This document shows positions 16,926-25,786 of a stretch of DNA of 64,000 bases, piece by piece. The DNA comes from Streptomyces sp. HUAS MG91 (GTDB taxonomy: Bacteria > Actinomycetota > Actinomycetes > Streptomycetales > Streptomycetaceae), in assembly GCF_040529335.1 (NCBI RefSeq), contig NZ_CP159534.1, positions 5,332,001-5,396,000 on the forward strand, read 5' to 3'. The first letter of the stretch is position 1; each line of letters opens with the position of its first letter. The position numbers and the translations under genes are program-made. The notes under the pieces were generated by a model that had not been told where the DNA came from, did not search any database, and worked only from the letters and a program-made list of their open reading frames with translations.

Positions 16926-18536
16926 TCAGACGGATGACGGACCAGGGGTGCGGCGCACCGAGCGGCCGGCGAGGACGTCGGTGCGGCGGCCGTCCTCGAT
17001 GACCGGCTTGCCGTCGATGAAGACGTGCGGGATGCCGACCGGCAAGGTGCGGGGCGACTCGAACGTCGAGCCCGCCGCCACCGTCTCCGGGTCGAACAGC
17101 ACCAGATCGGCGCGGTAGCCCTCGCGGATCAGCCCACGGTCGGGAAGCCGCAACCGCGCTGCCGGCCGGGACGTGAGGTGCGCGACCGTCTCCTCCAGGG
17201 AGAGCACACCCAGATCGCGGGCGTAGTGGCCGAGGTAGTGCGGAAACGTGCCGTACGCCCGCGGATGCGGCTTCGTCCCCTGGAGGATGCCGTCGCTGCC
17301 GCCCGTGTGCACCGGGTGCCGCATGATCGCGCGGACGTTCTCCTCGTGCCCCACGTGCTGGAGGATCGTCGAGCCGAGGCTGTCCTCCAGGAGGAGCCGG
17401 CGGGCGGTGACCCAGGGGGTCTCGCCGCGCTCGGCGGCCGACTCGGCGACCGTCTTGCCGACGTAGGAGGCGAGCGCGGGGTTCGTCGTCCCCGAGATCT
17501 CGATGCGGTCCCACTCGATCGGTACGCCGTGACAGCCGTCGGAGCCGATCTCCTCGACGTGCTCGCGGATCCGCTCGGACGCCGCGTCGTCGCGCAGCCG
17601 GGCGAGGGTGGCGTCCGGGCCGCCCTCGTTGGCCCAGCTCGGCAGCATCGCCACGAGCGTGGTGGCGCCCGGCGTGTACGGATACGTGTCCAGGCTGATG
17701 TCGGCGCCGGCCGCGATCGCCTCGTCGAGGAGGGCGAGGAGGTCCACTCCCTTGCCCTTGTTCACGCCGAAGTTCATGGTGGCGTGCGCCAGATGGAGGG
17801 CGCAGCCCGCGGTGCGGGTCAGCTCGACCATCTCGCGGTACGCGTCGAGCGCGCCGGCTCCGTAACTGCGGTGGTGGGGGCAGTAGTAGCCGTCGTACGC
17901 GGCCACCGTGCGGCACAGTTCGGTGAGTTCGGCGTCCTTGGCGTACATGCCGGGGGTGTAGGTGAGGCCCGACGACATGCCGACGGCGCCCTGTTCCAGG
18001 CCCTCGGCGACGAGGCGCCTCATGTGGTCCAGCTCGGCGTCGGTGGCGTCGCGGTCGTCCCAGCCGACCGCGTACATCCGGACCGTGCCCTGGGGGATGA
18101 GGTAGGCGGCGTTCACGGCGATGCCCCGGTCGAGGCGGTCCAGGTACTCGCCGACGGTGCGCCAGTCGAAGTCGATGTCGCTGCCGTCGCCGTTCCAGCC
18201 CGCGATGCTCCTGCGGACCTCCGCGAGGGTGCGGTCGTCCACCGGGGCGTAGGACAGGCCGTCCTGGCCGAGGACTTCCAGGGTGACGCCCTGGGCGGCC
18301 TTCGCGCTGTGGTCCGGGTCGCGGAGCAGGGCGAGGTCGCTGTGGGCGTGCATGTCGATGAAGCCGGGGCTCAGGGCGAGGTCCTGGCCGTCCAGGGTTC
18401 GGGTCGCCGTGGGGCGGGGGCCTTCGCCGGGGCGGTGGATCTCGGCGATGCGGCCGTTGTCCATCGCCACGTCCGCGCGGTAGGAGGCTCCGCCGGTGCC
18501 GTCGATCACTCGGGTGTTCTTGATGACCAGGTCCAT
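16926..18536 (-). CDS. N-acyl-D-amino-acid deacylase (D-aminoacylase family); candidate N-acetylglucosaminate deacetylase
   Basis: 536 residues, an amidohydrolase-superfamily TIM barrel with the usual outer beta sandwich (DLVIKNTRVIDGTGG at the N terminus). The metal site shows PGFIDMHAHSDLALL (HxH, about 63-77), YYCPHHRSYGAG, CALHLAHATMNFG and the catalytic Asp in HTGGSDGILQG, followed by KPHPRAYGTFPHYLG. Characterised relatives hydrolyse N-acyl-D-amino acids to a carboxylate plus a D-amino acid. The neighbours (a D-threonine-aldolase-fold PLP enzyme, RidA, KDG kinase and GntP) make N-acetyl-D-glucosaminate the most coherent substrate, which is inference. The start ATG 18536 has a GAGG ribosome site. 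It follows the PLP enzyme gene, with an interspersed palindrome between them. Confidence 0.88.
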   Translation of the reverse strand: MDLVIKNTRVIDGTGGASYRADVAMDNGRIAEIHRPGEGPRPTATRTLDGQDLALSPGFIDMHAHSDLALLRDPDHSAKAAQGVTLEVLGQDGLSYAPVDDRTLAEVRRSIAGWNGDGSDIDFDWRTVGEYLDRLDRGIAVNAAYLIPQGTVRMYAVGWDDRDATDAELDHMRRLVAEGLEQGAVGMSSGLTYTPGMYAKDAELTELCRTVAAYDGYYCPHHRSYGAGALDAYREMVELTRTAGCALHLAHATMNFGVNKGKGVDLLALLDEAIAAGADISLDTYPYTPGATTLVAMLPSWANEGGPDATLARLRDDAASERIREHVEEIGSDGCHGVPIEWDRIEISGTTNPALASYVGKTVAESAAERGETPWVTARRLLLEDSLGSTILQHVGHEENVRAIMRHPVHTGGSDGILQGTKPHPRAYGTFPHYLGHYARDLGVLSLEETVAHLTSRPAARLRLPDRGLIREGYRADLVLFDPETVAAGSTFESPRTLPVGIPHVFIDGKPVIEDGRRTDVLAGRSVRRTPGPSSV

Positions 18537-18601
18537 AGGGGGAGCCTCTCGTCTGCCGGGTTGTTGTCGCGTTGTCGGGTGCGGGCCGCGCCGTGGCCGC
18601 T

Positions 18602-18657
18602 CGCGCAGTTCCCCGCGCCCCTGAAGCGAGCTGCGCTCGCCCCGGGGCGCGGGGAAC
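18602..18657. repeat. Interspersed palindromic element, full unit
   Basis: GTTCCCCGCGCCCC (18608-18621) pairs with GGGGCGCGGGGAAC (18644-18657) across a 22-base loop that itself contains GCGAG/CTCGC arms. It stands between two same-strand genes and may act as terminator, attenuator or mRNA stabiliser between the PLP enzyme and the deacylase. Confidence 0.75.
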
Positions 18658-18667
18658 GAGGTGCGGC

Positions 18668-19945
18668 CTAGAAGAACGTCCGTACGTAGTCCACGACCGT
18701 GCCGTCCGCCTCCACCACCGGGATCAACTGCCACTTGTCGAACGAGGTGCAGGGGTGCGACAGGCCCATGCCGAGCCAGTCGCCCACCTCAAGCTCGGCG
18801 TCCTGGTCCAGGCGGAGCCACCCGTGCTGGTCGGACAGCCCCGTCACCGTGACCCCGGAAGCGTCGCGCACCGCGCCGGTGCGGGCGTCGCGGACGGCCT
18901 GGGCCTCGGGCAGGTCGAGGTCGTAGGCGGCGTCGCGCTTGCCGGCGTTGGTGAAGGCCTGGTCCGGCGCGGGACGCGAGACGACCTGCGCCCACAGCCG
19001 GAACGCCGGGTGCAGCGCCCCCTCCTCGGGGACCCGGTTGAACGGCGTCAGGTGGCGGTAGTGGCCGTCGTCGTGCGACACGTACGCGCCCGAGCGCAGC
19101 AGCTTCAGTACGGGCGCGCTCAGTTCGGGGATCTCGGCGAACACGTCGGCCACCGCGTCGAACCAGGCGGAGCCGCCCGCGCTGACCACGATCTCCTCGA
19201 CGCCCGCGAACCGTCCGGCCCGGTCGAAGTCCACCGCCAGCGCGACCAGCTGCCGCAGCCACGCCCGGACCCGGTCGCCGTCGGCCTGCGGCACCTCGCC
19301 CTCGTACCCGGCGACACCCACGAGCCGCAGCCGGTCGGCACCGGCCACCGCGTCGGCGACGGCCGCGCACTCGGCGTCGGTGCGGGCGCCGGTGCGCGCG
19401 CCGATCCCGGCGCCGAGTTCCACGACGACGTCCACCGGCCGGGTCGCGCCCGCCTCCGACAGGGCGGCCTGCATCAGCTCCACGCCGCGTACGGAATCCA
19501 CGTAGCAGACGAACCGGAAGGCCGGGTCGGCGGCGAGTTCGGCGGCCAGCCAGCGCAGCGCGGCCGCGTCGACCAGCTCGTTCGCCAGGAAGATCCGCTC
19601 GATGCCGAACCGCCGGGCCACCCGCACCTGGTGCGGCACGGCGAGGGTGATGCCCCACGCGCCGTGCTCGATCTGCCGCTGGAAGAGCTGGGGCGCCATC
19701 GACGTCTTGCCGTGCGGCGCGAAGGTGAGGCCGTGCCGTGTGGCGTATGTCTCCATGAGCGCGAGATTGTGCTCCAGGCGCTCGGCGGAGAGCGTGAGGA
19801 CGGGGGTGGTGAAGCCGTCCGTGTAGAGGTTGAGGCGGCGGGCGGCGAGTTCGCCGACCGTGGCGCCCTCGGCCTCGGGGGGCAGGCCCTTGAAGCGGAA
19901 GTCCACCCGTTCCTGCGCGAGCTCGTCCAAGCGGTCGGCGGTCAT
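18668..19945 (-). CDS. D-threonine-aldolase / D-serine-dehydratase-like PLP enzyme; candidate D-glucosaminate deaminase
   Basis: 425 residues, fold-type III (alanine-racemase barrel) with a C-terminal metal domain. The PLP lysine is in FAPHGKTSMAPQLF (about residue 76). VDVVVELGAGIGARTGART and the phosphate-binding VVSAGGSAWFD are barrel strands. The C-terminal metal ligands are the His and Cys of GLSHPCTSFDKWQ. Relatives carry out metal-dependent D-threonine aldol cleavage, D-serine dehydration, or D-glucosaminate dehydration to 2-keto-3-deoxygluconate and ammonia. The KDG kinase in the divergent operon favours the last. ATG 19945 is chosen for its GGAGGAGG ribosome site; a longer frame to 19990 would read through the operator. 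It is transcribed ahead of the deacylase. Confidence 0.8.
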   Translation of the reverse strand: MTADRLDELAQERVDFRFKGLPPEAEGATVGELAARRLNLYTDGFTTPVLTLSAERLEHNLALMETYATRHGLTFAPHGKTSMAPQLFQRQIEHGAWGITLAVPHQVRVARRFGIERIFLANELVDAAALRWLAAELAADPAFRFVCYVDSVRGVELMQAALSEAGATRPVDVVVELGAGIGARTGARTDAECAAVADAVAGADRLRLVGVAGYEGEVPQADGDRVRAWLRQLVALAVDFDRAGRFAGVEEIVVSAGGSAWFDAVADVFAEIPELSAPVLKLLRSGAYVSHDDGHYRHLTPFNRVPEEGALHPAFRLWAQVVSRPAPDQAFTNAGKRDAAYDLDLPEAQAVRDARTGAVRDASGVTVTGLSDQHGWLRLDQDAELEVGDWLGMGLSHPCTSFDKWQLIPVVEADGTVVDYVRTFF

Positions 19946-19967
19946 GGAGCCCTCCTCCAGGCGGACT

Positions 19968-19984
19968 GTTGCATTATTTGCAAC
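19968..19984. promoter_or_regulatory. Perfect inverted repeat, probable IclR operator
   Basis: GTTGCA-TTATT-TGCAAC has perfect arms around an AT-rich 5-base centre, 23-39 bases upstream of the PLP-enzyme start and in the divergent intergenic region shared with the KDG-kinase operon. The IclR gene in that operon is the obvious candidate regulator, which is inference. Confidence 0.65.
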
Positions 19985-20076
19985 GGTCATTGCGTATGTC
20001 GCTCACTGCTGTCTAACATCCGAGCCGATGCCGGGTCAACGAAGCCGTTGGCCCCCTGCCGCGAGGAGGACGCCCC

Positions 20077-21120
20077 ATGAATGGCACGCCGGTGGACGTC
20101 GTCGCGCTCGGCGAGTCCATGGTCACGTTCCGGCCCACCGTGCCGGGACGCCTCGCCGACGTGCCCTCGTTCGACCGCGGGATCGGCGGCGCCGAGTCCA
20201 ACGTGGCGTGCGTGCTGGCCGCCGGCGGACACCGCACGCGCTGGGTCAGCCGGGTCGGTGCCGACGGTTTCGGCGACCACCTGGTCGAGGCCATCGGCGC
20301 CTACGGAGTCGACGTGAGCGCCGTGCGCCGTGACCACGCCCGCCCCACCGGCATCTACTTCCGCACCGCCGGGGACCGCGGCGGCGACTCCCACGAGGTC
20401 GCCTACTACCGCGCCGGCTCCGCCGCCTCCGCGATGTCGGTGGCCACCCTGGACCTCGACGCGCTGCGCGCCGGACGCGTCCTGCACCTGTCCGGCATCA
20501 CCGCCGCGCTCTCCGCCGACTGCCTGGACCTGCTGCACGCCCTGACCGACGGCACGACCCCGGGCACCGTCTCCTTCGACGTCAACCACCGGCCCGGCCT
20601 GTGGCGCACCCCCGAGGACGCCCGGGTCCTGCTCGACCTGGCCCGCCGCGCCGACCTCGTCTTCGTCGGCGAGGACGAGGCCGAGGACGCCTGGGGCGTC
20701 ACCGGCGGGCCCGACGCGATCCGCGCCGCGCTGCCCGAGCCGGCCGTCCTCGTCGTCAAGCAGGGCTCCGCGGGCGCCGTCGCCTTCGACCGCTCGGCCG
20801 GTGAGCGCCGCCACTTCGAACCCGCCCCGCGCGTCGACGTCGTCGCCGCCGTGGGCGCCGGTGACGCCTTCGCCGCCGGATTCCTCTCGGCCACCCTGCG
20901 CGGGCTGCCCGCCGCGGCCCGGCTGCGCCACGGCCACCTGTGGGCCGCCGCGGCCCTCACCGTCCCCGGCGACCTCGCCGCACCCCCGAGCCGCGCCCAC
21001 GCCGACCGGCTGGTCGCCCTCGGGGCCGACGCGTGGGGGACACTGCACCTCGGCCCCGGCTGGACCGAAGCGACCGAAGCAGCCGACAGCGGGGCCGCCG
21101 AGGAGGTACGTACGCCATGA
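20077..21120 (+). CDS. kdgK: 2-keto-3-deoxygluconate kinase (PfkB family)
   Basis: 347 residues, a ribokinase/PfkB sugar kinase. It has GGAESNVACVLAAGGHRTRWVSRVG (written here in two parts: the N-terminal GG motif and the VSRVG strand) and the catalytic VGAGDAFAAGF near residue 265. Several stretches match KDG kinases specifically: PTGIYFR, EVAYYRAGSAASAMS (the YYR..GSA..SA substrate loop), HLSGITAALS and SFDVNHRPGLW. It phosphorylates KDG to KDPG, or a close analogue. The start ATG follows GAGGAGGACGCCCC. Its ATGA overlap with the IclR gene shows coupling. No KDPG aldolase lies in the window, so the product must be split by an enzyme encoded elsewhere. Confidence 0.83.
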   Translation: MNGTPVDVVALGESMVTFRPTVPGRLADVPSFDRGIGGAESNVACVLAAGGHRTRWVSRVGADGFGDHLVEAIGAYGVDVSAVRRDHARPTGIYFRTAGDRGGDSHEVAYYRAGSAASAMSVATLDLDALRAGRVLHLSGITAALSADCLDLLHALTDGTTPGTVSFDVNHRPGLWRTPEDARVLLDLARRADLVFVGEDEAEDAWGVTGGPDAIRAALPEPAVLVVKQGSAGAVAFDRSAGERRHFEPAPRVDVVAAVGAGDAFAAGFLSATLRGLPAAARLRHGHLWAAAALTVPGDLAAPPSRAHADRLVALGADAWGTLHLGPGWTEATEAADSGAAEEVRTP

Positions 21121-21884
21121 GCCAGACCGTCGACCGCGCGCTCAGCATCCTGCCGCTGCTCGCCGAGGGCCCCGCCGACCTGGGCCAGGTCGCCGACCGG
21201 CTCGGGGTGCACAAGTCCACGGCCCTGCGCCTGCTGCGCACCCTGCACGAGCACGGCCTGGTCCACCGTCAGTCCGACCAGCGCTACCGGCTCGGCGCCC
21301 GCCTCTTCGCGCTCGCCCAGGAGGCCGTCGAGAACCTCGACGTCCGCGAGATCGCCCACCCCCATCTCACCGCGCTCAACGAGAAGTGCGGCCACACGGT
21401 CCACCTCGCCGTGTACGAGGAGCACGAGGTCCTCTACATCGACAAGGTCGAGAGCCGCTACCCGGTGCGCATGTACTCGCGCATCGGCAAGCCCGTCGCC
21501 ATCACGGTGGCGGCCGTGGCGAAGCTGCTGCTCGCCGACCGGCCCGAGGCCGAGCGCCGCGCCCTCGCGGAGAAGCTCGACTACCCCATGTACACGGCCC
21601 GTTCGACCCCCAACGCGACCGCCTTCCTGCGGGAGCTGGAGAAGGTGCGCGAACAGGGCTGGGCCACCGACCTCGGTGGCCACGAGGAGTCCATCAACTG
21701 CGTCGGGGCGCCCATCCGCGGTGCCGACGGACGCGTCGTCGCCGCCATGTCGGTCTCCGCGCCGAACGTGGTCGTCACCGCCGAGGAACTCCTCACCCTG
21801 CTTCCGCTCGTGCGCCGCACGGCGGAGGCGATCAGCCGGGACTACTCCGGTAACCCACCGACCAAGGAAGCCAGTTCACGATGA
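21117..21884 (+). CDS. IclR-family transcriptional regulator of the catabolic cluster
   Basis: 255 residues. An N-terminal winged helix (about 1-65; LGQVADRLGVHKSTALRLLRTLHEHGLVHR) is followed by the IclR effector domain (HPHLTALNEKCGHTVHLAVYEEHEVLYIDKVE; CVGAPIRGADGRVVAAMSVSAP). IclR proteins respond to small carboxylates or sugar acids, which fits KDG, KDPG or glucosaminate as the signal here. The start ATG 21117 overlaps the kinase stop (ATGA), with GAGGAGG before it. The probable operator is the inverted repeat at 19968-19984 between the two divergent arms. Whether it represses or activates cannot be told from the sequence. Confidence 0.92.
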   Translation: MSQTVDRALSILPLLAEGPADLGQVADRLGVHKSTALRLLRTLHEHGLVHRQSDQRYRLGARLFALAQEAVENLDVREIAHPHLTALNEKCGHTVHLAVYEEHEVLYIDKVESRYPVRMYSRIGKPVAITVAAVAKLLLADRPEAERRALAEKLDYPMYTARSTPNATAFLRELEKVREQGWATDLGGHEESINCVGAPIRGADGRVVAAMSVSAPNVVVTAEELLTLLPLVRRTAEAISRDYSGNPPTKEASSR

Positions 21885-22297
21885 CCGAGAACGCCAAGAC
21901 CGCACTCACCCCCGCCACGCACACCACCCCGCCCGCGAAGTTCTCGCACGGCGTCAAGAAGGGCAACATCCTTCAGGTCGCGGGCCAGGTCGGCTTCCTC
22001 CCGGCCGTCGAGGGCCAGGCCCCCACCCCGGCCGGCCCGACCCTGCGCGAGCAGACCCTCCAGACCTTCGCCAACGTCAAGGCGATCCTCGAAGAGGGCG
22101 GCGCCACCTGGGACGACGTCATGATGATGCGCGTCTACCTAACGGACGTCGACCACTTCGCCGAGATGAACAAGATCTACAACGAGTACTTCGAGGAGCA
22201 GGGCCTGACCGCCCCCGCCGCCGCGCGCACGACCGTCTACGTCGGTCTGCCCAAGGGCCTGCTCATCGAGATCGACGCGCTCGCCGTCCTCGGCTGA
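21881..22297 (+). CDS. ridA: RidA-family enamine/imine deaminase
   Basis: 138 residues, the standard length. RidA proteins hydrolyse reactive enamine/imine intermediates released by PLP dehydratases to the 2-keto acid and ammonia, acting as cytosolic trimers. Visible motifs are ILQVAGQVGF, QTLQTFANVKAILEEGGATWDDV, and the catalytic Arg in PAAARTTVYVGLP with LIEIDALAVL at the C terminus. The conserved Arg supports true deaminase activity. ATGA overlap with the iclR gene. Its presence argues that the divergent PLP enzyme works by dehydration through an enamine intermediate rather than only by retro-aldol cleavage. Confidence 0.9.
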   Translation: MTENAKTALTPATHTTPPAKFSHGVKKGNILQVAGQVGFLPAVEGQAPTPAGPTLREQTLQTFANVKAILEEGGATWDDVMMMRVYLTDVDHFAEMNKIYNEYFEEQGLTAPAAARTTVYVGLPKGLLIEIDALAVLG

Positions 22298-22345
22298 GCC
22301 CGCGGCACCCCGCACCCTGATCCACCCGCAAGCCGTACGTCGTCA

Positions 22346-22378
22346 CGGCGCGGCGCGCACCCCCCGCGCGCCGCGCCG
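22346..22378 (+). terminator. Perfect GC hairpin between ridA and gntP
   Basis: CGGCGCGGCGCGC and GCGCGCCGCGCCG form a perfect 13-bp stem around a 7-base C-rich loop (ACCCCCC), 49 bases after ridA and 46 before the permease. There is no U tract. It may lower permease expression relative to the upstream genes or protect the upstream mRNA. Confidence 0.6.
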
Positions 22379-22423
22379 CGATCCCCCCTGCCCTGAAAGC
22401 CCGATGCACTTACGAGGTCAACG

Positions 22424-23911
22424 ATGTCCCCGTTCGCACTCGCCGCCCCGCTCGCGGCCCCCACCGAGGCTCCACCCCACACCGGCGGCATCCTCACGAT
22501 CATCGACGGAACGGCCGGTCTGCTGACCGTCGCCTTCCTCGGCATCGTGCTGCTGCTCTTCCTGATCATCAAGGCCCGCATACAGCCCTTCGTGGCCCTG
22601 CTCGCGGTCTCCATAGCCGTCGGCCTCGGCGCCGGCCTGTCGGTCACCGAACTCTTCGGCACCGTCCAGAAGTCCGACGCCGTCTCCACCATCGAGTCCG
22701 GCATGGGCGGCACCCTCGGGCACGTCGCCATCATCATCGGCCTGGGCACCATGCTCGGCGCGGTCCTCGAAGTCTCCGGCGGGGCCGAGGTCCTGGCCTC
22801 CCGCCTGCTGAACCTCTTCGGCGAGAAGCGCGCCCCCCTCGCGATGGGCCTCACCGGCCTGATCTTCGGCATCCCCGTCTTCTTCGACGTCGGCATCTTC
22901 GTCCTCGCGCCGATCGTCTACGCGGCCGCCAAGCGCGGCGGCAAGTCGATCATCCTGTACTGCATGCCGCTGCTGGCGGGCCTGTCGATGACGCACGCCT
23001 TCCTGCCGCCGCACCCGGGCCCCGTCGCCGCCGCCGGCCTGCTGAAGGTCGACCTCGGCTGGGTCATCCTCATGGGCATCGTCTGCGGCATCCCGGCCGT
23101 GCTCGCCGCCTGGGGCTGGGCCGCCTGGATCGGCAAGCGGATCTTCGTCCCCGTACCGCAGGACATGGTGGAGGCCGCCGAGGAGGCGAAGGCCGCCCTG
23201 GAGGCCGAGCAGCGCGCCTCGGGCGTCACCCCGACCGAGAAGCCGGTGCCGCTGGGCACCGTGTTCACCATCATCGGTACGCCGCTGGTGCTGATCCTCC
23301 TCGCGACGTTCTCCTCGATCGCCTTCGACCCGTCCACGGGCCGCTCGGTCATCGAGTTCTTCGGGCACCCCTTCGTCGCGCTGACGATCGCCCTGATGAT
23401 GGCCTACTACCTGCTGGGCATCCGGCGCGGCTGGTCCCGCAAGTCCCTGGAGACGGTGTCGACCGCGTCGCTGAAGCCGGTCGGCAACATCCTTCTGGTG
23501 GTCGGCGCGGGCGGGGTCTTCGGCGCCGTCCTCAAGGCGAGCGGCATCGCCGACGCGCTGGCCGACACGTTCAACGGCATGGGCCTGCCGGTCATCGTGC
23601 TCGCCTACCTGATCTCGCTGGTGCTGCGCGTCGCCCAGGGCTCGGCGACGGTCGCCATCGTCACGACGGCGGGCATCGTCGCCCCGCTGCTCTCCGAGGG
23701 CCACTACTCGCAGGCGTTCACCGCGCTGGTCATCATGGCGATCTCGGCGGGCTCCATCTTCGCCTCGCACGTGAACGACGGCGGGTTCTGGATGGTCTCC
23801 AAGTACTTCGGCATCTCCGAGCGCGACACGCTGCGCACCTGGACGGTCCTGGAGTCGGTCCTGTCGCTGGCCGGATTCGCGGTCGCGGCCGTGGTCAGCC
23901 TGTTCGTCTGA
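22424..23911 (+). CDS. gntP: GntP-family sugar-acid:proton symporter
   Basis: 495 residues with about 12-14 spans, the size and pattern of the gluconate:H+ symporter family. Signatures include GGTLGHVAIIIGLGTMLGAVLE, FFDVGIFVLAPIVYAAAKRGG, MPLLAGLSMTHAFLPPHPGPVAAA and the C-terminal SATVAIVTTAGIVAPLL with ASHVNDGGFWMVSKYFGIS. Family members import gluconate, D-serine or related hydroxy- and amino-acids. Next to a glucosaminate-type PLP enzyme and KDG kinase it probably imports an (N-acetyl)glucosaminate or aldonic acid. ATG 22424 follows an acceptable ACGAGG region. It is the last gene of the rightward operon, ending in a strong hairpin. Confidence 0.9.
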   Translation: MSPFALAAPLAAPTEAPPHTGGILTIIDGTAGLLTVAFLGIVLLLFLIIKARIQPFVALLAVSIAVGLGAGLSVTELFGTVQKSDAVSTIESGMGGTLGHVAIIIGLGTMLGAVLEVSGGAEVLASRLLNLFGEKRAPLAMGLTGLIFGIPVFFDVGIFVLAPIVYAAAKRGGKSIILYCMPLLAGLSMTHAFLPPHPGPVAAAGLLKVDLGWVILMGIVCGIPAVLAAWGWAAWIGKRIFVPVPQDMVEAAEEAKAALEAEQRASGVTPTEKPVPLGTVFTIIGTPLVLILLATFSSIAFDPSTGRSVIEFFGHPFVALTIALMMAYYLLGIRRGWSRKSLETVSTASLKPVGNILLVVGAGGVFGAVLKASGIADALADTFNGMGLPVIVLAYLISLVLRVAQGSATVAIVTTAGIVAPLLSEGHYSQAFTALVIMAISAGSIFASHVNDGGFWMVSKYFGISERDTLRTWTVLESVLSLAGFAVAAVVSLFV

Positions 23912-23918
23912 TGACCCA

Positions 23919-23963
23919 GCGGGACGGCGCCGTGGCTCACCGTAGTGAGCGGCGCCGTCCCGC
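23919..23963 (+). terminator. Terminator after gntP
   Basis: GCGGGACGGCGCC pairs with GGCGCCGTCCCGC. The 19-base loop contains a small inner CAC/GTG stem. It starts 8 bases after the permease stop codon. Confidence 0.75.
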
Positions 23964-24044
23964 CGGTTCGTGACCAGGACGTGAGGGGCCCGGGGGGCGC
24001 GGGACACAGAGTCGTCCGCCATACTTCGGCGCGTGGAGCAGCGT

Positions 24045-24626
24045 ATGGACAGTCAGAAGGTCACGCCCGTCGCCGGCGCCGGTTTCGACCCGGCGTACGT
24101 CCCCGGTCTGACGTCTCCCGCGAAGGAGACGGTTGTCGAGGACGCCCAGGCCACCGAGGCGGAAGCGGACGAGCCCGCGGGGGAGGTGAGCGCGCCGTCC
24201 CTGGAGAAGCCGTCCCCGGAGAAGTCGTCCCTGGACAAGTCGTCCCCGGAGAAGTCCTCCCTGGACAAGGAGACGCCCGAGGACGCCAGGCCCGAGGACG
24301 CCTCGGACGCCGGGCCCGAGGCGGAGGAGGAACCCGGCGCCGCGGCGAAGGCCGGCGACGTCACGCTGGAGGCCAAGGACCGCCGCGGCTCCATCAGCGT
24401 CGACGCGACCGGCGTCCGCTACACCCTCGACGACCAGGAGGCCGACTTCACCTGGGACGAGATCAGCGCCGTCGAGTACGGCACCTCGCGCAAGCGCCTC
24501 ACGGTGACGGTGCACACGCCCAACAGCCGCTGGTACCCGAACGATGTCGAGGCCCCCGACAAGTCCCGCCTCAAGGAGTGGACGGACAGCCTCGACAAGG
24601 CGCTGGACCTCTACTTCGAGGACTGA
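24045..24626 (+). CDS. Unknown acidic protein with a five-residue tandem repeat and a C-terminal PH-like domain
   Basis: About 193 residues in two parts. Residues 1-105 are low-complexity and acidic, with five tandem 5-residue units at 52-76 (SLEKP, SPEKS, SLDKS, SPEKS, SLDKE), coded by a 15-base repeat at 24198-24272. Residues 110-193 look folded: VTLEAKDRRGSISVDATG, VRYTLDDQEADFTWDEI and SAVEYGTSRKRLTVTVHTP resemble small bacterial PH-like beta domains found in Streptomyces. There is no signal peptide or membrane span. ATG 24045 is preferred because GGAG lies 8 bases upstream; GTG 24033 is the alternative. The acidic Ser-rich part could be a phosphorylation target, which is speculation. Confidence 0.7.
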   Translation: MDSQKVTPVAGAGFDPAYVPGLTSPAKETVVEDAQATEAEADEPAGEVSAPSLEKPSPEKSSLDKSSPEKSSLDKETPEDARPEDASDAGPEAEEEPGAAAKAGDVTLEAKDRRGSISVDATGVRYTLDDQEADFTWDEISAVEYGTSRKRLTVTVHTPNSRWYPNDVEAPDKSRLKEWTDSLDKALDLYFED

Positions 24627-24629
24627 CGT

Positions 24630-24663
24630 GGGCAGCGCCGCCGGGGGAGCGGCGGCGCTGCCC
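24630..24663. terminator. Bidirectional terminator between convergent genes
   Basis: GGGCAGCGCCGCC and GGCGGCGCTGCCC make a perfect 13-bp stem with an 8-base loop. It sits 3 bases after the plus-strand stop and 20 bases from the chitinase stop, so it probably serves both. Confidence 0.8.
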
Positions 24664-24683
24664 GTTCGAGGGACGGCCCCGGG

Positions 24684-25709
24684 CTAGAGGCCGTGCACGT
24701 GGCCGCCGACCGCCGAGGACCAGGCGTTGCCGGCCGTCGCGTCCCAGTTCGTCGACCAGGTCATCGCGCCGCGGATGCCGGGGTACGTCTTCGACGGCTT
24801 GAAGGAGCCGCAGTTGGTGCCCTTGGCGAGGCAGTCGAGGGCGTCGTTGACGACCGACGGCGCGACGTAGCCGCTGCCCGCGGCGCTCGACGACGCCGGG
24901 ACGCCGATGCCGACCTGCGACGGGTCGAGGCCGCCCTCCAGCTGGATGCAGGCGAGCGCGGTCAGGAAGTCGACCGAGCCCTGGCTGTAGACCTTGCCGT
25001 CGCAGCCGAGCATCGAACCGCTGTTGTAGTACTGCATGTTGACCACGGTGAGGATGTCCTTCACGGCCAGCGCGGTCTTGAAGTACTCGGCGGACGTGGA
25101 CTGCATGTCGATGGTCTGCGGCGCCATCGTGAGTACGAAGCCGCTGCCCGCCTTCGCCGCCAGGGACTCCAGCGCCTGTGACATGTAGGTGGAGTTGAGG
25201 CCGTTCTCCAGGTCGATGTCGACGCCGTCGAAGCCGTACTCCTGCATCAGCGCGTAGAGCGAGTCGGAGAAGTTGGCCGCGGAGGCCGCGTCGTTGATCG
25301 AGACCGTGCCGTTCTGGCCGCCGACCGAGATGACCACCGACTTCCCGGCCGCCTGCTTCGCCTTGATGTCGGCCTTGAACGCGTCCTCGGTGTAGCCGCC
25401 CAGGCCCGCCGAGTCGAGCGTGAAGTCGACCGCGCCCGGTGTCGTCGTGGCGTCGGCGAAGGCGACCGCGATGATGTCGTAGTCGGCCGGCACGTCGCTG
25501 AGCTTCTGGACCGCCGCGCCGTTGTCGAAGTTCTGCCAGTAGCCGGTGACCGCGTGCGCGGGGACGGCGGCCGCGGCGCTGTGCGCGGTGGGGGCCGCGT
25601 CCGCGCTGCCCGCCGTGGTGAGGAACAGGCCGGTCGCGGCGAGCGCGGCGGCCGTGAACCCGCCGAGGAACGTGCCGAGTCGGCCGCGCCGGCGGTGGGA
25701 GTGCGTCAT
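24684..25709 (-). CDS. Secreted GH18 chitinase
   Basis: 341 residues. A twin-Arg-containing signal sequence (HRRRGRLGTFLGGFTAAALA, cleaved probably after SADAA) precedes a GH18 catalytic barrel: HAVTGYWQNFDNG, VVISVGGQNG, and the active-site motif GFDGVDIDLENG (DxxDxDxE, the last Glu catalytic). MAPQTIDMQ and YYNSGSMLGCDGKVYSQGS are later barrel strands, ending in RGAMTWSTNWD. There is no carbohydrate-binding or fibronectin domain, so this is a catalytic-domain-only chitinase. It hydrolyses chitin outside the cell. A DasR-type site overlaps its promoter, predicting induction by GlcN-6-phosphate. Confidence 0.93.
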   Translation of the reverse strand: MTHSHRRRGRLGTFLGGFTAAALAATGLFLTTAGSADAAPTAHSAAAAVPAHAVTGYWQNFDNGAAVQKLSDVPADYDIIAVAFADATTTPGAVDFTLDSAGLGGYTEDAFKADIKAKQAAGKSVVISVGGQNGTVSINDAASAANFSDSLYALMQEYGFDGVDIDLENGLNSTYMSQALESLAAKAGSGFVLTMAPQTIDMQSTSAEYFKTALAVKDILTVVNMQYYNSGSMLGCDGKVYSQGSVDFLTALACIQLEGGLDPSQVGIGVPASSSAAGSGYVAPSVVNDALDCLAKGTNCGSFKPSKTYPGIRGAMTWSTNWDATAGNAWSSAVGGHVHGL

Positions 25710-25770: not shown

Positions 25771-25786
25771 ACTGGTCCAGACCAAT
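25771..25786. promoter_or_regulatory. DasR-responsive element (dre) upstream of the chitinase
   Basis: ACTGGTCCAGACCAAT differs by only two bases from the known dre consensus ACTGGTCTAGACCACT. It is 62-77 bases upstream of the chitinase ATG and just downstream of a minus-strand TTGACA (25792-25797). DasR, the GntR regulator of chitin and GlcNAc genes, is expected to repress here. Confidence 0.85.

Follow-up and report, generated by a model that had tools for sequence, protein, structure and literature searches.

Streptomyces species are leading degraders of chitin in soil and secrete lytic polysaccharide monooxygenases (LPMOs) of family AA10. Chitin cut by these enzymes ends in a C1-oxidised unit, N-acetyl-D-glucosaminate (GlcNAc1A). 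Here we describe a gene cluster in a 64,000-nucleotide stretch of Streptomyces sp. HUAS MG91 (the window; contig NZ_CP159534.1, positions 5,332,001 to 5,396,000; genome 8.6 Mb) that is likely to be a locally regulated catabolic module for GlcNAc1A and a variant of a known pathway. The cluster consists of two divergent arms (Table 1). The minus arm encodes a pyridoxal phosphate (PLP) enzyme and then an amidohydrolase, and the plus arm a PfkB kinase, an IclR regulator, RidA and a GntP permease; ATGA overlaps join kinase to iclR and iclR to ridA. Pfam and NCBIfam scans of the window proteins bore out the gene list and coordinates given in an earlier sequence-only reading of this DNA.

Table 1. 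Features of the cluster and its surroundings (window coordinates).
Feature	Position	Strand	Basis
N-acyl-D-amino-acid-deacylase-like amidohydrolase, proposed N-acetyl-D-glucosaminate deacetylase	16926..18536	-	PF07969 (Amidohydro_3) E 4.6e-51; start ATG 18536, MDLVIKN
PLP enzyme, D-serine-dehydratase type, proposed D-glucosaminate dehydratase (deaminating)	18668..19945	-	PF14031 (D-ser_dehydrat) and PF01168 (Ala_racemase_N)
Palindrome GTTGCATTATTTGCAAC, proposed IclR operator	19968..19984	.	conservation across divergent loci
Footprint CRTTGCGTAT..CGCTTA..GCTGTCTAACATC, proposed kinase-arm promoter	19988..20020	+	column conservation, 86 loci
PfkB sugar kinase, proposed 2-keto-3-deoxygluconate (KDG) kinase	20077..21120	+	PF00294 E 1.4e-49
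IclR-family regulator	21117..21884	+	PF01614, PF09339
RidA enamine/imine hydrolase	21881..22297	+	PF01042 (Ribonuc_L-PSP) E 1.7e-26
GntP-family permease, proposed GlcNAc1A importer	22424..23911	+	PF02447 E 6.5e-129
GH18 chitinase, neighbour	24684..25709	-	PF00704
dre-like DasR site upstream of GH18	25771..25786	+	ACTGGTCCAGACCAAT, 3 mismatches to consensus

In the proposed pathway, GntP would import the aldonic acid GlcNAc1A and the amidohydrolase would strip its acetate, leaving D-glucosaminate, which in formal terms is a D-amino acid with a beta-hydroxyl group. The Zn/PLP dehydratase would then remove water, and tautomerisation with RidA-aided hydrolysis would yield ammonia and KDG. The PfkB kinase would convert KDG to 2-keto-3-deoxy-6-phosphogluconate (KDPG), to be split into pyruvate and glyceraldehyde-3-phosphate by a KDPG aldolase encoded elsewhere; the genome has four PF01081 (KDPG aldolase) loci, none of them inside the window cluster. 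The palindrome between the arms would be the target of IclR, whose effector is probably KDG or GlcNAc1A. We infer every substrate, the direction of transport, the binding of IclR to the palindrome and its effector. Oxidation of chitin has reportedly been described in Pseudoalteromonas prydzensis in a 2022 Nature Communications paper, and the Ong pathway is said to degrade GlcNAc1A there. To our knowledge, this catabolic job is known only from a marine bacterium, with related but different proteins.

The kinase carries the stretches YYRAGSAASA and HLSGIT, which align with the same stretches of the Thermus thermophilus KDG kinase (PDB 1v19, 149.3 bits), and also the GAGDAF stretch expected of KDG kinases. 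The KDG-specific loops named in the earlier reading (YYR..GSA..SA; HLSGIT) are thus present. Among NCBIfam models, the kinase is best matched by one for a bifunctional kinase of KDG and 2-keto-3-deoxygalactonate (KDGal), at 171.4 bits and below the equivalog cutoff of 400; for IclR the best match is KdgR, at 159.8 bits and below its cutoff of 275. The permease matches TIGR00791 at 390.5 bits, above the cutoff of 292.75.

The PLP enzyme had been described as having the D-threonine aldolase fold. This held for the family, which it shares with the D-threonine aldolases 4v15 and 7dib and with D-serine deaminase 3gwq, its best PDB match (288.3 bits); the favoured reaction is that of a dehydratase. 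The His-x-Asp of the aldolase 4v15 (SHVD) aligns with His-x-Cys in the window enzyme (SHPC of SHPCTSFDKW), and H412 and C414 are invariant in 40 aligned rows. We take His-x-Cys to mark zinc-dependent D-serine dehydratases and His-x-Asp to mark D-threonine aldolases. Because the enzyme has the former motif instead of the latter, dehydration is favoured over aldol cleavage, and the RidA gene beside the PLP gene makes deamination via an enamine the natural reading. The open reading frame begins at 19990, but the most likely start is the ATG at 19945, which carries a ribosome site, since the upstream ATG falls within the conserved footprint of the promoter and is itself not conserved (70 of 86 rows).

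By alignment, the deacylase shares the amidohydrolase family and most metal-ligand positions with the D-aminoacylases 1rjp and 1m7j, from which it differs by about 40 extra residues between two aligned stretches. It scored 237.8 bits against 1rjp and 192.4 bits against PDB 9kb1, named PpOngB. Three aligned actinobacterial deacylases have GQDG, PHHRSY and AHAT or SHAT where three OngB-like proteins have GNCG, THxR and SHxK. All 16 aligned deacylases of the Streptomyces group carry GQDG, PHHRSY and AHAT, and GQDG was found in all 76 deacylase entries tallied from named loci (L228, L245 and L098 could not be read cleanly; L and G numbers are our labels for loci and genomes). The other positions, HxH, His, His and Asp, which we take to be metal ligands, are present as H63, H65, H222, H251 and D415 in the numbering of the 16-sequence alignment. 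An AlphaFold model had a mean pLDDT (predicted local distance difference test) of 67.9, with residues 62-144 below 50, from a shallow 16-sequence alignment. Deacylases of the GNCG type exist in Actinobacteria too (L244, L246). The genome of strain HUAS MG91 itself encodes a second deacylase paralogue (36-37%) with GNCG at C1:317081 (L246:8076-9656).

Of 199 genomes of the genus, 197 had a match to the PLP gene (E <= 1e-20), as did 98 of 99 in an order sample made up mostly of the same genus; paralogues are not excluded from either count. For the neighbourhoods we used 99 Streptomyces-group loci with flanks, namely 18 that we drew from genomes, one from G223 and the best 80 of a named-genome scan, the last taking in Embleya, Actinacidiphila and two Nocardiopsis. 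Being closely related, the loci are not independent of one another, and each gene was counted only where there was enough flank. Next to the PLP gene were a deacylase in 91/96, the kinase in 85/95, IclR in 84/92, RidA in 83/90, GntP in 61/88 and GH18 in 37/72 loci. Seven loci (L086, L087, L089, L090, L092, L093 and L102) keep the PLP gene, five of them with the deacylase too, and have no kinase or GntP at the locus; both of the latter are also absent at L177, L187 and L189.

Outside this group we chose from the top hits 32 actinobacterial loci with a deacylase at least about 44% identical (L036; L094, L095, L098, L099 and L103; L227-L241; L245; L267-L276). Left out were L037, L242, L243, L244 and L246, in which the deacylase fell under about 44%, and L096, L097, L100 and L101, in which it was not found; contig ends cut L237 and L245. 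The kinase was present in 18 of the 32, KDPG aldolase in 14 and the PLP gene in 24. The aldolase was confirmed by Pfam in L094, L095 and the Cupriavidus locus L034 (below); in the remainder it was identified by tblastn. The aldolase-bearing loci are those of Tsukamurella, five genomes of family f3 and eight further loci with shuffled gene orders. In Tsukamurella tyrosinosolvens, RidA-IclR-kinase diverges from PLP-deacylase-KDPG aldolase-GntP. This record (L036) is filed as plasmid 9, yet it has ftsE, ftsX and smpB and may be a chromosomal contig. Of six family-f3 genomes whose main locus was fetched, five have deacylase and kinase there with the aldolase directly after the deacylase; at the sixth (L097) the aldolase adjoins the PLP gene and there is no intact deacylase. 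The order is deacylase-kinase-aldolase-PLP in L275 and L276 and PLP-aldolase-deacylase-GntP in L268 and L269. A gene set that stays constant while its order varies argues for one function, and an aldolase within the cluster supplies the missing last step and so supports the proposed pathway.

Hexosamine genes also stand beside some of these clusters. In G378 a single frame of 1103 amino acids (L236:6545-9853) fuses the deacylase (Amidohydro_3 at 83-549) to a full GH20 hexosaminidase (Glyco_hydro_20 at 692-1027). Downstream are genes for a ROK regulator, a ROK kinase and a NagB-like protein resembling glucosamine-phosphate isomerase, and on the other side are the PLP gene and RidA. A search of 150 genomes of its family (E <= 1e-100) gave matches in 28, and both halves were matched in G378 only. 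G579 has a GH20-like gene directly beside the PLP gene, and genes for a SIS-domain protein and a BadF-type kinase adjoin RidA in G642. The scanned neighbours of L270 gave no clear sign either way. In L231, L232 and L234, from the AA10-carrying genomes G392, G314 and G346, kinase and deacylase diverge from RidA or IclR; no PLP gene was found near these loci, and the dehydratase may be encoded elsewhere or be non-homologous.

A plasmid collection held 212 records with a PLP relative, of which ten were fetched. A sugar kinase accompanies the PLP gene in six of them: Cupriavidus, Tsukamurella, Microbacterium, two Pseudoalteromonas and Comamonas, the last with a KDGal kinase. The Pseudoalteromonas shioyasakiensis locus encodes the deaminase, RpiR, a D-aminoacylase (823.5 bits against 9kb1), RidA, the kinase and GH20; in strain CF6-2 the locus also has genes annotated as an SSS symporter and a TonB receptor. 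The Ong pathway and the Streptomyces cluster have four enzyme families in common: a D-aminoacylase-type deacetylase, a D-serine-dehydratase-type deaminase, RidA and a PfkB kinase. The feature set of Ong, in which deacetylase, deaminase, RidA and KDG kinase are encoded together, is also found in the Streptomyces cluster. The Ong-type locus includes GH20, whereas no GH20 was found in the Streptomyces-group loci. In a tree of 40 PLP sequences chosen by us from 139 extracted, with two very long rows and unresolved deep actinobacterial branches, Pseudoalteromonas grouped with Cupriavidus (100/98) and with two other Proteobacteria (99/94), not with Streptomyces. The megaplasmid of Cupriavidus metallidurans CH34 (L034, unannotated) shares GntP, RidA, deacylase, PLP gene, kinase and KDPG aldolase with the actinobacterial clusters but differs in having an RpiR regulator, an OngB-like deacylase with GNCG and SHxK and a PLP enzyme of the Pseudoalteromonas group. 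A parallel set on a Comamonas plasmid (L040:104-11937), with a 2-dehydro-3-deoxygalactonokinase and an aldolase for 2-keto-3-deoxy-6-phosphogalactonate (KDPGal), suggests a galactosaminate version.

The route of import, deacetylation, deamination to KDG and phosphorylation had been put forward in the sequence-only reading. Its core is well supported by comparative genomics, through the aldolase within clusters, the GH20 fusion and the Pseudoalteromonas locus; the substrate itself is a matter of interpretation. GlcNAc1A is the simplest candidate because the route would end in a KDG-type acid, involves acyl removal from a D-amino acid and has hexosamine genes as neighbours elsewhere; its galacto epimer comes second.

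The control of the cluster is probably local. The palindrome GTTGCA-N5-TGCAAC lies between the arms of 93 divergent kinase/PLP loci (the Streptomyces group plus five of family f3), exactly in 61, with one mismatch in 25 and with two in 7. At most one mismatch was thus found in 86 of 93 loci against 0 of 1860 composition shuffles, although the loci counted are those from which the motif had been derived. Outside the 93, Tsukamurella has two mismatches to it and Microbacterium four. Adjacent to it we propose that the footprint at 19988..20020 is the kinase-arm promoter (TTGCGT/TAACAT, 18-bp spacing) with a further TTGC half-site. The sequence of strain HUAS MG91 holds one exact copy of the palindrome and nine sites with at most one mismatch (one exact and eight others), compared with ten for a reversed-pattern control, and this comparison led us to reject a motif-based wider IclR regulon.

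DasR control of the pathway arms was likewise rejected, the intergenic region being without dre: of the 16 positions, the best match there missed 6-8 in 91 of the 93 segments, and 4 and 9 in the two that remain. A local IclR switch on the palindrome, with predicted binding, is therefore the probable arrangement rather than a DasR switch. The dre-like site upstream of the chitinase gene compares with 0.14 matches expected by chance, and one or more appeared in 13 of 100 shuffles. A second match to the 12-base dre core, with two mismatches, lies inside the kinase gene at 20282-20293, where 1.16 are expected by chance. Upstream of GH18 genes, the core occurs with at most one mismatch in 9 of 36 regions and in 0 of 720 shuffles; the other 27 have at least two mismatches. 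These matches place the dre site with the GH18 gene. The earlier reading noted the chitinase and its dre site next to the arms; with GH18 near 37 of 72 loci and dre not between the arms, their membership of the pathway is not supported.

A survey of whether the cluster occurs together with LPMO genes had also been proposed. The genome of strain HUAS MG91 has three AA10 genes, in keeping with the proposed pathway. Among 296 genomes of the class, AA10 occurred in 13 of 22 cluster carriers outside the genus and in 45 of 246 others (Fisher p 7e-5, uncorrected for kinship). At most four candidates per genome were scored, so that carriers may have been missed, and the carrier cutoff of about 46% identity was set after the list had been inspected; G421 and G493 (44%, no AA10) fell below it. 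Because the association is confounded by kinship, we do not count it as support.

Several observations weigh against GlcNAc1A catabolism as the function. Outside the genus and family f19, AA10 was present in only 2 of 11 carriers, and since there is no second exact palindrome in the genome, neither the LPMOs nor the aldolases are tied to IclR by the motif. KDPG aldolase was found at none of the 99 Streptomyces-group loci. Within the group GntP is absent at 27/88 loci, the kinase at 10/95 and the deacylase at 5/96, and among the 32 other actinobacterial loci 14 have no kinase, 18 no aldolase and 8 no PLP gene. Four of the ten fetched records (Pantoea, Agrobacterium, Novosphingobium and Rhizobium) carry no KDG-type kinase with the PLP gene, and in L273 (G594) glutamine synthetase and amino-acid permease genes stand beside the PLP and deacylase genes. 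A simple transfer from the Ong system is further opposed by its RpiR regulator, in contrast to IclR, and by its SSS symporter and TonB receptor, in contrast to GntP. Its enzymes are not close to those of Streptomyces, with 29% identity for the deacylase and 32% for the PLP enzyme. Compared with the OngB-like proteins and the D-aminoacylases 1rjp and 1m7j, the window deacylase has Asp in place of the GNCG cysteine, presumably a metal binder, and lacks the SHxK lysine, presumably the holder of the substrate carboxylate. Because of these motif differences and the 29% identity, its substrate is not transferable from OngB.

Some of these observations would suit ordinary catabolism of N-acyl-D-amino acids such as those of D-Ser and D-Thr, in which the deacylase and dehydratase would act in turn, RidA would take the enamine and GntP would resemble the D-serine permease DsdX. 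The family names D-aminoacylase and D-serine deaminase point this way, as do the amino-acid genes near L273, the PLP relatives beside amino-acid ABC transporters with no kinase in Pantoea and Agrobacterium, and the fact that DsdX is a GntP-family model, which our permease matches at 247.7 bits (cutoff 618). However, neither the recurrence of a KDG-type kinase with KDPG aldolase nor the GH20 fusion is explained in this way, and in the PLP tree Pantoea is unplaced and Agrobacterium falls with the Proteobacteria away from Streptomyces, the deep branches being unresolved. We regard this explanation as unlikely. Another N-acetyl hexosaminate, above all N-acetyl-D-galactosaminate, or both epimers, would fit the bifunctional KDG/KDGal model that best matches the kinase, the parallel Comamonas set with its annotated galacto-type kinase and KDPGal aldolase, and an alpha-fucosidase gene further out in G579. 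Yet chitin is the abundant source for Streptomyces, and the cluster aldolases match the Tsukamurella EDA better than the Comamonas DgoA, a weak point as the EDA query is itself actinobacterial. This too seems improbable.

The arms could also be two functions that share an intergenic region, one a KDG or uronate salvage arm (kinase, IclR, GntP) and the other a D-amino-acid arm (PLP enzyme, deacylase). Their divergence would allow this, and the PLP gene and deacylase do occur without the kinase arm in L089 and L092, as do kinase and deacylase without the PLP gene in L231, L232 and L234. The single runs in L275 and L276, the aldolase lying between PLP gene and deacylase in L268 and L269, and the single conserved palindrome between the arms make such a split very improbable.

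With GlcNAc1A catabolism as the preferred function, the chances seem evenly balanced that Actinobacteria assembled a pathway of their own, from a distinct deacylase clade (Asp for Cys, no SHxK lysine), a separate dehydratase branch and a dedicated IclR with its palindrome. Being widespread in Streptomyces, it could then supply the intracellular stage so far lacking from LPMO-driven chitin oxidation in soil. We know of no description of the intracellular fate of oxidised chitin ends in Streptomyces, and since the cluster is widespread and has one predicted operator, this fate can be tested directly in a laboratory strain. If correct, the proposal suggests that the oxidative chitin pathway is not confined to marine bacteria, and it would assign a role to one clade of deacylases and one branch of dehydratases that at present are annotated as D-amino-acid enzymes or alanine racemases.

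Two further features were seen in the same genome. A paralogous group of kinase, IclR and KDPG/KDPGal aldolase lies at C1:3733000-3740000 (L106:1726-4005; 45%, 41% and 36% identity). Between GntP and GH18, an open reading frame at 24033-24626 (+) has no Pfam match, and many loci of the Streptomyces group have a counterpart in a similar place (30-77% identity among those inspected).

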